Shown here piece by piece: positions 5,212 to 9,582 of a stretch of DNA of 48,259 nt. This stretch comes from Thermoflexales bacterium (GTDB lineage Bacteria; Chloroflexota; Anaerolineae; J036; Brachytrichaceae), in NCBI GenBank assembly GCA_019694215.1, contig JAIBCK010000014.1:1-48259 (forward strand), in the 5' to 3' direction. Each line of letters begins with the position of its first letter. Positions within the stretch are counted from its first letter, which is position 1. The notes below the pieces were generated by a model. That model was not told where the DNA came from and ran no database searches. It saw only the letters and a list, made by a program, of their open reading frames with translations. Made by a program: the position numbers and the translations under genes.

Positions 5212-6096
5212 ATGAAGACCTACTCGGCAGAGTCCCTCATCGTTCGTCCGCACGCGTCCGGCGATGTCATCGTCTCGGTCACCCCGCAGCAGGCGGGTTG
5301 GGAGTTCATCTCGTTTCAGGCCCGCCGTCTGGCCACGGGCGCGCGCTGGTCGTTTGACACGGGCGAGAATGAGCTGGCACTGGTGAATCTCACCGGCCGT
5401 TACACGGTGGAGTCGGAGCGCGGGCGCTGGACGGGCATCGGCGGGCGGGCCAACGTCTTCGCCGGCGGCGCGCACGCGCTGTATCTGCCGCGCCGCACGT
5501 CGTTTGAGGTGATCGCCGAGCAGGGTGGCGATTTTGCCGTCACCTGGGTGCCGACAGATCAGGACCATGCGCCCTGGTTGATTGCGCCGGAGGCGGTCAA
5601 GCGCTCGATCCGCGGCGGCGACAACGTCAGCCGTCAGATCAACGACCTGCTCCCGCCGGGTTCGCCGGTGCATCGCCTGGTGCTGGTCGAGGTCTACACG
5701 CCCAGCGGCAACTGGAGCAGCTATCCGCCGCACAAGCACGACCGCCACATCGTGGGTGCGGACGGGACGCTGATCGAGGCCGATCTCGAAGAGGTGTATT
5801 TCTACAAGATCGACCGGCCGGGCGGATTTGCCTACCAACGTATCTACACCACCAGCGATGCTTCGCCGCTGCACGCGGCGGGCCGCGGCTTCGACGCGCT
5901 GGTGCGCGCCGAGGACAACTGCGCGGTGCTCGTCCCCGAGGGCTATCACCCGGTCGTGAGCGGCCCGGGCTACACGACCTATTACCTGAACGTGCTGGCG
6001 GGCAGCGCCCAGAGCCTGGCCAATCAGGATGATCCCGCCCACACCTGGGTCAAGACCGCCTACCGCGGCACAGACCCGCGCCTGCCGCTGTACTGA
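5212..6096 (+). CDS. iolB: 5-deoxy-glucuronate isomerase
   Basis: 294 residues. IolB isomerises 5-deoxy-D-glucuronate to 5-dehydro-2-deoxy-gluconate in myo-inositol breakdown. It is a bicupin; the metal-binding segment is visible as YPPHKHDRH, then LEEVYFYKI, with a further His in EGYHPVVSGPGY. GGDNVSRQINDLLPP is also typical of the family. The start at 5212 is preceded by AGGAG. It opens an iol operon with iolD and iolG downstream, but a four-helix-bundle gene framed by inverted repeats sits between iolB and iolD. The other pathway genes (iolC, iolE, iolJ, iolA) are not in the window. Confidence 0.93.
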   Translation: MKTYSAESLIVRPHASGDVIVSVTPQQAGWEFISFQARRLATGARWSFDTGENELALVNLTGRYTVESERGRWTGIGGRANVFAGGAHALYLPRRTSFEVIAEQGGDFAVTWVPTDQDHAPWLIAPEAVKRSIRGGDNVSRQINDLLPPGSPVHRLVLVEVYTPSGNWSSYPPHKHDRHIVGADGTLIEADLEEVYFYKIDRPGGFAYQRIYTTSDASPLHAAGRGFDALVRAEDNCAVLVPEGYHPVVSGPGYTTYYLNVLAGSAQSLANQDDPAHTWVKTAYRGTDPRLPLY

Positions 6097-6127
6097 GTGG
6101 GGCCGGGAAGGCGTTTGAGTCCTGCCA

Positions 6128-6157
6128 TCCGTCATCCGTCATCCGTCATGCGTTAGG
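6128..6157 (+). repeat. Left inverted repeat of the four-helix-bundle element
   Basis: Tandem 7-bp units, three CATCCGT (the first from 6126) then CATGCGT, ending TAGG. The 30 nt from 6128 to 6157 match the reverse complement of 6632-6661 at 28 positions. The array lies 31 nt after the iolB stop codon. Confidence 0.85.
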
Positions 6158-6180
6158 CAATGCGGACCCACAGGAGGCTT

Positions 6181-6636
6181 GTGACCGAGAACTTCGAATC
6201 GTGGAAGCAGCACGTTCCCCCGGAGATCACCCGGGATGCGCTCTGGCGGGTGACCGCCTATCAGCTTGCGACCTATCTCGCAGACCTGAGCTGGGCGGAT
6301 GTCACCGGGCTCGTCCGGGATCGGCGAACGGTGGCACTGGCCGACCAGCTCTATCGGGCCGCGTGCTCCATCGGCGCGAATATCGCCGAGGGCTACTCGT
6401 ATGGCACGGGGCCGAACCGTGCCCGCTTCTATGAATACGCCCTGGGCAGCGCCAGGGAGACCCGAGACTGGTACTTCAAGGCCCGGCACGTGCTCGAGCC
6501 GGAGACGCTGCGCCTCCGCCTCAGCGTGCTGGAAAGAGTGATACAAATGCTCCTCACACTGATTCCGAGTCAGCGCGCCACGCGAGCCATGGAGGAAACC
6601 GCCCCGTACGAGACCGACGGGACACAGCTCCCCTAA
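6181..6636 (+). CDS. Four-helix-bundle protein (23S rRNA IVS / S23 family)
   Basis: About 151 residues from GTG at 6181 (AGGAGG at 6172-6177, only 3 nt away); an ATG at 6160 is possible but has no ribosome-binding site. The motif LADQLYRAACSIGANIAEGY, then an ARFYEYALGSARET segment, marks the four-helix-bundle family (TIGR02436) first found in intervening sequences of 23S rRNA and related to the Avd accessory protein of diversity-generating retroelements. The molecular role of the family is unknown; RNA or DNA binding is often assumed. The gene interrupts the iol operon on the same strand and is framed by near-identical inverted repeats, and its TAA stop codon is the first triplet of the right repeat. 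It is therefore probably cargo of an inserted element and not an inositol gene. Confidence 0.85.
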   Translation: MTENFESWKQHVPPEITRDALWRVTAYQLATYLADLSWADVTGLVRDRRTVALADQLYRAACSIGANIAEGYSYGTGPNRARFYEYALGSARETRDWYFKARHVLEPETLRLRLSVLERVIQMLLTLIPSQRATRAMEETAPYETDGTQLP

Positions 6637-6661
6637 CGCATGACGCATGACGCATGACGGA
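6632..6661 (-). repeat. Right inverted repeat of the four-helix-bundle element
   Basis: Reads CCTA followed by three ACGCATG units and ACGGA on the plus strand. Its reverse complement matches 6128-6157 at 28 of 30 positions; both differences are C-for-G changes in the 7-bp unit. It supplies the stop codon of the four-helix-bundle gene and ends 23 nt before iolD. I see no target-site duplication outside the repeats. Confidence 0.85.
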
Positions 6662-6684
6662 ATAAAGTAACCCAAACCGTAACC

Positions 6685-8556
6685 ATGACAATCCGCCTGA
6701 CAACCGCCCAAGCGCTTGTGCGCTATCTGCTCAGCCAGTCCACCGAACGGGATGGGGTCACCCAGCCTTTCTTTGGCGGATGTTTTGGCATCTTTGGCCA
6801 CGGCAACATCGCCGGCGTCGGCCAGGCCCTGCGCCAATACCCGGCCCTGCGCTACTACCAGGCGCGCAACGAGCAGGCCATGGTGCACACCGCCGCTGCC
6901 TATGCCCGCCACAGCCTGCGCCTGCGCACCCTGGCCTGCACCAGCTCGGTCGGCCCCGGCGCGCTCAACATGGTGACCGGCGCGGCCGCCGCGACCGTCA
7001 ACCGTGTGCCCGTGCTGCTCCTGCCCGGCGACATCTTCGCCCGCCGCAACGTCGCGCCCGTCCTGCAACAGCTCGAAAGCGAACACTCGCAGGACATCTC
7101 TGTGAACGATTGCTTCAAGCCGGTCAGCCGCTACTGGGACCGCATCAACCGGCCCGACCAGCTGATCACCGCGCTGCCCGAGGCCATGCGCGTCCTGACC
7201 AGCCCGGCCGACACCGGCGCCGTGACCCTGTGCCTGCCCGAGGACGTGCAGACCGAGGCCTGGGACTTCCCCGCGGCGCTCTTTGCCCCGCGCGTGTGGC
7301 ACATCCCGCGCCCGCGCGCCGACCGCGACGCCCTGCTGCGCGCCGCGACGCTGATCCGCAGCGCACAACGCCCGATGATCGTCGCCGGCGGCGGCGTGCG
7401 CTACAGCGAGGCCACTGGCACCCTGGCGCGCTTCGTCAAGCGCACCGGCATCCCCGTGGGCGAGACCATGGCCGGCAAGGGCAGCCTGCGCTATGACAAC
7501 CCGCTCTGCCTGGGCGCGATTGGCGCGACCGGCACCTTTGCCGCCGATCAGGTCGCCCTCGAGGCCGACCTGGTGATCGGCATTGGCACGCGCTACAGCG
7601 ACTTCACCACCGCCAGCAAGACCCAGTTCCAGAACCCGGAGGTGGCGTTTGTCAACATCAACGTCGCCGAGTTCGATGCCGCCAAGCACAGCGGGCTGAT
7701 GCTGGTCGGCGACGCGCGCGAGACTTTGGATGAGCTCCTGACGTTGCTCGACGGCTGGCGCGCGCCCGAGGCGCACACCCGCGCCGCGCAGGTCCTGCAC
7801 ACGGCCTGGGAGGCCGAGGTGGACGGGCTGTATGGCCGCCGCAACGCGCCGCTGCCCAGCCAGAGCGAGCTGCTGGGCGTCCTCAACGAGCAGGGCGACC
7901 GCGAGGCCGTCGTCCTCAACGCCGCCGGCTCCATGCCCGGCGACCTGCACAAACTCTGGCGCGCCCGCCATCCCACCCAGTATCACGTCGAGTATGGCTT
8001 CAGCACCATGGGTTACGAGGTCGCCGGCGGGCTGGGCGTCAAGATGGCCGATCCCGGTCGCGAGGTCTATACGTTGGTCGGGGACGGCTCATATCTCATG
8101 CTGGCGACCGAGATCGCCACGGCCGTGCAGGAGGGCTATAAGCTCACCATCATCCTGATGGACAACCGCGGCTACAACAGCATCGGCAGCCTCAGCCGCT
8201 CGCTCGGGCAGAAGGGGTTTGGCACGCGCTACACGCGCCCGGTCGGGGAGGCCCCCGGCCGCATCGCCGAGGATGGCGAGCAGGCCGATGACCTTCCAGT
8301 CGATCTTGCGGCCAACGCCCGCAGCCTGGGCGCCACCGTGTTCGAGTGCGATGGCACCGACGCCTTCGCAGCCGCGCTGCAGCAGGCCCGCGCCGAGACC
8401 AACACGGTCGTCATCTACGTCCGCAACGATCGCCATGTCGGCGTGCCCGGCCACAGCTGGTGGGATGTCCCCCCCGCCGAGGTGAGCGAGAGCGTTGACG
8501 TGCAGGCCGCGCGCGCGGCCTGGGAGCGCATGCGCGCCAAAGAGCGCTACTACTGA
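6685..8556 (+). CDS. iolD: 3D-(3,5/4)-trihydroxycyclohexane-1,2-dione hydrolase
   Basis: 623 residues, a ThDP-dependent enzyme that opens the ring of the inositol-derived dione to 5-deoxy-glucuronate, the substrate of IolB. The ThDP-activating Glu lies in YYQARNEQAMVHTA, and the diphosphate/Mg2+ motif is GDGSYLMLATEI followed by MDNRGYNS. FGGCFGIFGHGNIAG near the N-terminus is typical of IolD. There is no Shine-Dalgarno sequence before ATG 6685, and the nearest upstream sequence is the right inverted repeat, so the element may have altered its leader. iolG follows after 18 nt. Confidence 0.94.
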   Translation: MTIRLTTAQALVRYLLSQSTERDGVTQPFFGGCFGIFGHGNIAGVGQALRQYPALRYYQARNEQAMVHTAAAYARHSLRLRTLACTSSVGPGALNMVTGAAAATVNRVPVLLLPGDIFARRNVAPVLQQLESEHSQDISVNDCFKPVSRYWDRINRPDQLITALPEAMRVLTSPADTGAVTLCLPEDVQTEAWDFPAALFAPRVWHIPRPRADRDALLRAATLIRSAQRPMIVAGGGVRYSEATGTLARFVKRTGIPVGETMAGKGSLRYDNPLCLGAIGATGTFAADQVALEADLVIGIGTRYSDFTTASKTQFQNPEVAFVNINVAEFDAAKHSGLMLVGDARETLDELLTLLDGWRAPEAHTRAAQVLHTAWEAEVDGLYGRRNAPLPSQSELLGVLNEQGDREAVVLNAAGSMPGDLHKLWRARHPTQYHVEYGFSTMGYEVAGGLGVKMADPGREVYTLVGDGSYLMLATEIATAVQEGYKLTIILMDNRGYNSIGSLSRSLGQKGFGTRYTRPVGEAPGRIAEDGEQADDLPVDLAANARSLGATVFECDGTDAFAAALQQARAETNTVVIYVRNDRHVGVPGHSWWDVPPAEVSESVDVQAARAAWERMRAKERYY

Positions 8557-8574: not shown

Positions 8575-9582
8575 ATGAAGCAGGAATACCGGGTCGCCTT
8601 TCTCGGGGCGGGGCGCATGGGCCTCACCCATCTGCGCAATCTGGCCGGGGTGAAGGGCGTGCGCGTCGTCGTCGTTGCCGATACCGTGGAGGAGAATGCG
8701 CGGCGGGGCGCGCAGGTCGCCGGAGCCGAGCGGGCCAGCGACGACATCCTGGGCGCGATCAAGGCCCCGGACGTCGACGCTGTCATGATCGCGACGCCCA
8801 CGCCCACGCACGCCGAGCTGCTCGAGGCCGCGGTGCTGGCCGGCAAGCCCACCTGGTGCGAGAAGCCCATCACGCAGGACCTGGCCGGCACCCGCCGCGT
8901 CGTGGACCTGATCGCAGCGCGCGGGGTGCCCGTGCAGATTGGCTTCATGCGCCGCTTTGACCCCGGCTATGCCGAGGCGCGCCGCCGCATCGACGCGGGC
9001 GATATCGGCGTGCTGGAGCGCTTCTCGGCGTCCAGCTGCGACACGGCCCCACCGCCCATCGGCTACATTGCGACCAGCGGCGGCATCTTCGTCGACATGT
9101 CCGTGCATGATTTCGACCTGGCCCGCTTCCTGTGCGGTGAAGTGGATGAAGTCTTTGCGTGGGGTGATTCGCGCATCGACCCCGCCTTTGCCGAGGTCGG
9201 CGATGTTGACATTGCGGTCGCCACGCTGCGCTTCCGCAACGGCGTGCTGGGCACGCTGCAGGCCTCGCGTCGGGCGGTGTGGGGCTATGACATCCGCACC
9301 GAGGTGGCCGGCTCGACCGGCAAGCTGGTGATCGATGCGCCGCAGAAGACGCCTGTGCGCCAGTATGGCCCGCTCAGCAGCACGGTCGATCACTTCGCCA
9401 GCTTCCCGGACCGCTTCGAGGCGGCCTATCGCCTGGAGATGGAGGCCTTCTTCGATGCGCTGCGCAATGGCCGCGCGCCGACGCCCTCGGCTGCCGACGC
9501 GCTGGAGAGCCTGCGCGTGGCCCTGGCCGCGACCCGCAGCCTGCACGAGCGCCGCGCCGTCAAGCTGAGCGAGATTGTGTAG
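8575..9582 (+). CDS. iolG: Inositol 2-dehydrogenase (Gfo/Idh/MocA family)
   Basis: 335 residues. An NAD-dependent dehydrogenase that oxidises myo-inositol to scyllo-inosose, the first step of the pathway. The Rossmann motif is FLGAGRMGLTHL; CEKPITQDL carries the conserved Lys, and DMSVHDFDLARF carries the catalytic Asp/His pair. GGAGG precedes the start. It completes the iolB-iolD-iolG set here. Gfo/Idh/MocA enzymes are hard to assign by sequence; the operon supports inositol as substrate. Confidence 0.88.
   Translation: MKQEYRVAFLGAGRMGLTHLRNLAGVKGVRVVVVADTVEENARRGAQVAGAERASDDILGAIKAPDVDAVMIATPTPTHAELLEAAVLAGKPTWCEKPITQDLAGTRRVVDLIAARGVPVQIGFMRRFDPGYAEARRRIDAGDIGVLERFSASSCDTAPPPIGYIATSGGIFVDMSVHDFDLARFLCGEVDEVFAWGDSRIDPAFAEVGDVDIAVATLRFRNGVLGTLQASRRAVWGYDIRTEVAGSTGKLVIDAPQKTPVRQYGPLSSTVDHFASFPDRFEAAYRLEMEAFFDALRNGRAPTPSAADALESLRVALAATRSLHERRAVKLSEIV

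Follow-up and report, generated by a model that had tools for sequence, protein, structure and literature searches.

S23-family "four helix bundle" genes occur widely but still lack an explained function, and where intervening sequences (IVS) come from and how they move is a long-standing question. In the 48,259-nucleotide stretch of DNA analysed here (the window), one such gene stands between iolB and iolD, framed by inverted repeats built of heptamers, which raises the question of what kind of element this is and whether the gene and the repeats belong together.

The S23 gene and its heptamer arrays at the iol site

The predicted protein matched PF05635 with an E value of 2e-15 and 57.1 bits (curated cut-off, 33.8) and TIGR02436 with 64 bits (cut-off, 24), in each case above the curated cut-off. 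Its AlphaFold2 model was helical (pLDDT 80), and 2gsc and 2rld, both structures of the S23 family, were the top PDB matches, with DGR Avd as a much weaker one behind them. On these matches the protein is a true member of PF05635/TIGR02436, predicted to adopt the helical-bundle fold of the family. Given the profile matches and the equivalog models of its neighbours (Table 1), the S23-family gene placed between iolB and iolD by the preliminary description is real, and the third gene is consistent with iolG. The ATG at 6160 was assumed as the start codon, and later alternative starts are possible.

The same description had the repeats matching at 28 of 30 positions and the right repeat supplying the stop codon of the gene; both statements were confirmed, the two mismatches being C opposite C and the stop being TAA. 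Its count of four 7-bp units per repeat held for the left array, while on the right only three units are complete and a partial one, ACGGA, follows. The inverted-repeat score of the element was 24, compared to a maximum of 11 among 2000 letter shuffles of the flanks, which rules out a chance origin. No similar heptamer pair was found elsewhere in the window, and S23 is the sole coding content of the element, which has no transposase gene. Apart from the element, a PemK/MazF-like toxin gene (1040-1468) stands behind an IrrE/M78 peptidase-domain gene (67-1101) in the window, a possible toxin-antitoxin-like pair.

Table 1. Features of the array-bounded element and its neighbours (window coordinates)
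Feature	Position	Strand	Support
iolB, upstream neighbour (start uncertain)	5254..6096	+	TIGR04378 equivalog, 303 bits
Whole array-bounded S23 element	6126..6661	+	Inverted heptamer arrays at both ends; shuffles 0/2000
Left heptamer array, CATCCGT x3 + CATGCGT	6126..6153	+	TRF period 7, 4.0 copies
Left inverted-repeat arm, 30 nt	6128..6157	+	28/30 complementary to 6632-6661
S23 / 23S_rRNA_IVP four-helix-bundle protein gene, 158 aa	6160..6636	+	PF05635, TIGR02436, fold match 2gsc/2rld
Right inverted-repeat arm, holding the S23 stop codon (6634-6636)	6632..6661	+	
Right heptamer array, ACGCATG x3	6636..6656	+	TRF period 7, 3.4 copies
iolD, downstream neighbour	6685..8556	+	TIGR04377 equivalog, 874 bits
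GFO/IDH/MocA oxidoreductase, iolG-like	8575..9582	+	PF22725, PF02894, PF01408

The genome from which the window comes (G000) yielded 45 matches to the pattern CATNCGT x3 and none to its reversed control. Most of them mark the termini of an apparently non-coding family that is scattered through the genome, (CATSCGT)n-TTAGGGGTGTCTGCATGGC, for which 36 ends were counted at three mismatches or fewer. What this family has in common with the window element is the heptamer sequence and, next to it, TTAGG / CCCCTAA, but nothing of the remainder. This family carries internal repeats around CAGAAGAACGAAGAAACGAAGG (for example, L030 122-1127 and L040 1321-2006), and many contig breaks of the draft genome fall at it. 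The only other TIGR02436 match in this genome (C17:9876-10190; L042) adjoins its sole RVT_1 match and looks like a DGR Avd gene, and no heptamer arrays were found around it.

Relatives show the iolD site in several states. G021 and G023 carry S23 orthologues (54% identity) directly upstream of iolD with TCGGGAG-type arrays, and these are sister to the window S23 in the tree (100/93). Arrays are retained around a partly deleted S23 gene in G016 and G026, only array-like remnants are left in G006 and G027, and the site is empty in G020 and G025. With orthologues in G021 and G023 that have different arrays, the window element would be long established at the iol site in part of the family and would have had its arrays exchanged for others. 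The preliminary description took retention of the gene in all relatives with diverged or absent repeats, or a lack of other copies of the repeat pair, as evidence against itself, and the outcome is mixed: the arrays of G021 and G023 have diverged but are still mutually complementary, and further repeat pairs do recur at other S23 loci. In another genus, G009 has nothing at the site, G019 has an unrelated S23 gene and G002 has a GxxExxY gene together with octamer arrays; judged from these sequences, the site upstream of iolD as such appears to attract inserts.

Recurrence of the architecture and joint gain and loss

TIGR02436 genes were present in 43 of 60 related genomes, often with many per genome. 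Complementary arrays surrounded 54 of the 68 S23 loci from the window's class and 44 of the 79 loci that could be tested after scanning genomes of other phyla, compared to 6 of 2000 random segments, and the array-bounded loci outside the class come from at least a dozen lineages. The array unit varies from locus to locus, with the left and right arrays of one locus being reverse complements, and the period is nearly always 7 or 8. An independent detector scored both arms in 91 of 148 loci; left and right periods agreed in 88 of these 91 (76 were 7/7 and 10 were 8/8), and the units of the two arms differed by a distance of at most 1 in 59, a closeness reached by 2.4% of arms taken from different loci. 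The co-change correlation of the arms (rho 0.72) was computed on loci pre-selected for complementary arms and is partly circular for that reason, so it is not counted as evidence. Loci with the same period tend to group on the S23 tree, where the period changes 6 times, compared to 8.8 times in shuffles (1/500); a strict tie of unit sequence to S23 phylogeny was not borne out, the relation being only weak (Mantel r 0.26). A single query of 50,697 phage records returned no S23 match. Searches of open-access papers gave no description of S23 genes with such inverted arrays, and novelty on that scope is provisional; array-bounded S23 inserts are a widespread kind of mobile insert between operon genes that has apparently not been described before.

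Comparisons of filled and empty sites, exact or close in each case, bear on how the architecture arises. On a conjugative plasmid of Trichormus variabilis, an S23 element lies between two transfer-region genes (L287), and the same site is empty on sister plasmids that are ~97% identical (L289-L291). PCC 7003 has an S23 element at cas10-cmr3 where the PCC 7002 site is empty, Calothrix 7716 has one where NIES-4105 has none, and G023 (L102) has one where G021 (L128) is empty. In Nostoc, L307 and L319 are filled vs L315-L317 empty, and L308 and L312 are filled vs L311 empty. Since the empty sites lack both the gene and the arrays, and since S23-less copies (described below) have arrays at both ends, the arrays are part of the inserted unit; as far as these alignments go, they show that the gene and its arrays come and go together. 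These sites largely contradict the idea that the arrays are secondary, having formed by slippage and template switching at hairpins, either once a gene had simply been inserted or independently of it, and we regard that idea as very improbable even though orthologous sites differ in their unit and its copy number with the arms still complementary, and quasi-palindrome correction could keep the arms alike. Slippage may be behind later unit turnover. The suggestion of a small mobile element that uses the S23 family is thus supported by recurrence across phyla, by empty and full sites and by dispersed S23-less copies. S23 orthologues have been retained for long at single sites (groES-groEL, dprA-topA and iolD), a slow pace for an element that moves.

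Among 90 deduplicated sites, with neighbour orientation taken from a crude ORF caller, S23 was in the sense orientation relative to both neighbours in 62 and antisense to both in 4 (p 2e-14). Among the flanking genes are groES-groEL, argC-argD and those of a topA junction; dprA and pil neighbours were assigned by reading translations, not by profile match. Even essential gene pairs, groES-groEL for one, thus accept an insert between them. The dN/dS ratio of S23 pairs was 0.04-0.28, and S23 is under purifying selection. In five Flavobacterium species (L271, L273, L275, L277 and L278), an S23 element lies between groES and groEL with extra array copies in the gap, and S23 elements were also seen in CRISPR operons (L285, L288 and L309), once at cas10-cmr3 and at cas6-cas4 in two cyanobacteria.

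S23-less elements, interior exchange and other cargo

On a Nostoc plasmid (L318), an S23 gene is itself interrupted by a 182-bp S23-less element bounded by TCAGAAG/CTTCTGA arrays. L307 and L319 have the same stretch intact, GGGAGAGCA|GATAAAG, and no base was lost at the insertion. This 182-bp element matched 98 places in 43 plasmid records. L316 and L307 have a common insertion junction with different interiors between the arrays, which suggests, at the level of sequence comparison, an exchange of interiors between identical arrays. One operon gap contains S23 with AGGATGA arrays in G019 and G002 and a bare GTTGAGA hairpin in G014. In Chloroflexus-like relatives, the units of solo arrays matched S23 units of the same genome in 21 of 36 cases in G021, compared to 6.7 for letter-shuffled units, and in 66 of 87 cases in G019, compared to 32. 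The array architecture is a concrete and testable link, in that S23 travels with inverted short-unit arrays that also bound scattered non-coding hairpins.

Taken across genomes, the occupant of a single junction may be an S23 gene, a GxxExxY gene or a bare hairpin, and the junction may also be empty. The GxxExxY loci (TIGR04256; L155-L184) often have inverted arrays with 8-10 bp units (CACGGAGA, CGCAGAGAA and CGCGAATGAA) and are a possible second class of array-bounded element; 7 of 28 passed the strict array test. Because array-like ends occur around GxxExxY genes too, S23 is not the sole cargo. A serious rival, which we rate as rather unlikely, has S23 as a passive cargo: the arrays would be mobilised by the host or by a transposase, interiors would be swapped by recombination between arrays, and S23 would be kept because, once transcribed by read-through, it is of use to the cell. 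It fits the large excess of S23-less elements in the stretches that were sampled (400 kb of G021 with 36 solo arrays and 2 S23 genes, and 303 kb of G019 with 87 and 11), the different interiors between the same arrays, the presence of GxxExxY and S23 genes at the same junction at two sites (the iolD site, and L112 vs L176) and the purifying selection on S23. However, arrays around most S23 loci in many phyla are a strong association for a passenger, and the clustering of array period on the S23 tree also argues against it.

Pairing of the arms and proposed movement of the element

The preliminary description also considered an IVS-like element in mRNA. In that reading, pairing of the arrays within the operon transcript would give RNase III a stem to cut, and the gene would be released or the mRNA divided in two. 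The sense orientation in operons (62:4) would suit this reading, as would arms of ~24-36 nt, close to the 28-bp stem of the Coxiella burnetii 23S rRNA IVS that is cleaved by RNase III (PMC4990558), and the RNA of the window, which folds with its arms paired (z -5.8). However, arm mismatches across S23 loci showed G.U:A.C at 55:71 after deduplication, and no excess of G.U over A.C was found at any stringency (85:97, 126:136, 188:207 and 50:49 at the others); arms without such an excess do not look selected for pairing in RNA. In addition, an Rfam scan of 20 S23 loci other than the window returned no family match, rRNA included, and the S23-less hairpins behave alike. We consider cleavage of such an mRNA stem improbable. 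A 23S rRNA IVS as such was rejected, given the position of the window copy between iolB and iolD and the Rfam result at the other loci. The elements do have a strand polarity: G exceeded C in the left arm of 79 of 99 S23 elements (79:20) and in every one of the 40 scorable periodic solo hairpins of G019 (40:0), compared to 19:30 for non-periodic hairpins, with the window arrays, C-rich inward, being an exception.

No transposase or cut site was found for the S23 elements. A reverse transcriptase was rejected as the mover since RVT_1 is absent from several S23-rich genomes; the complete genome G021, with 7 S23 genes, gave no match, and in G000 the only match is the one on C17, with no reverse transcriptase beside the window element. 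The Y1 (RAYT) transposase (PF01797) gave no match in G000, G002 and G013 (drafts, 93-96% complete) and was rejected as well, being absent from the G002 and G013 drafts despite 8 S23 matches in each. A candidate 7-8 bp target duplication, GTAATTA(A), was seen in Trichormus, none was evident at the L318 insertion or the L318/L319 site, and a fixed target-site duplication is inconsistent among cases.

Taking as established the common architecture, joint gain and loss, the inserted S23-less copies, interior exchange between identical arrays and selection on S23, we favour, at somewhat better than an even chance, an array-bounded single-gene mobile element whose S23 protein recognises the arrays and aids persistence or movement, with the cutting enzyme supplied by the host or in trans. 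An S23 gene flanked by inverted arrays whose tandem unit is short (7 bp in the window) would form one inserted unit that lands in the gaps between operon genes, usually in sense, so that the host promoter could drive S23 transcription. Counterparts in the same genomes that have these arrays and lack S23 take the form of short hairpins or MITE-like inserts. The arrays would act as DNA, not RNA, as hairpin ends or recombination arms, and the S23 protein, by analogy with its relatives, is probably a nucleic-acid-binding oligomer; from its association with the arrays and the selection on it, it may recognise them and help the element to persist or move, while the strand-cutting enzyme would come from the host or be provided in trans. 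More tentatively, and with less than even confidence, these elements could form a new class with ends set by period and pairing instead of a fixed sequence, S23 serving as its own recognition or mobility factor, the S23-less hairpins as non-autonomous copies and the GxxExxY elements as a parallel class.

Several known systems resemble the present elements in part. The 23S rRNA IVS with an S23p ORF (PMC4990558) likewise has terminal inverted repeats around an S23-family ORF, is suspected to be mobile and lies in sense with the host transcript; in contrast, the elements described here are in protein operons and not in rRNA, their arms are tandem 7-8-mer arrays, and there is no sign of RNA-stem selection. 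REP/REPIN sequences with RAYT (PMC3116915, PMC2817692) share dispersed short intergenic hairpins, a rarer gene-bearing relative and one-strand polarity, but the present arms are arrays of variable units and the gene carried is that of S23 instead of a Y1 HUH transposase. MITEs and IS-derived elements also produce short non-coding copies with inverted ends and insert cleanly, as at L318, whereas the present ends are set by period and pairing, no transposase was found and target duplication is not consistent. DGR Avd belongs to the same protein fold family, and the Avd-like C17 gene adjoins a reverse transcriptase; heptamer arrays were not seen around this copy, and the window element has no adjacent reverse transcriptase. 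Finally, the heptamer direct repeats or STRRs of cyanobacteria and Beggiatoaceae (PMC4679880) are intergenic tandem heptamers as well, although they were described as direct repeats without an S23 gene or an inverted partner array; array-bounded elements would explain the build-up of heptamer repeats in some genomes.
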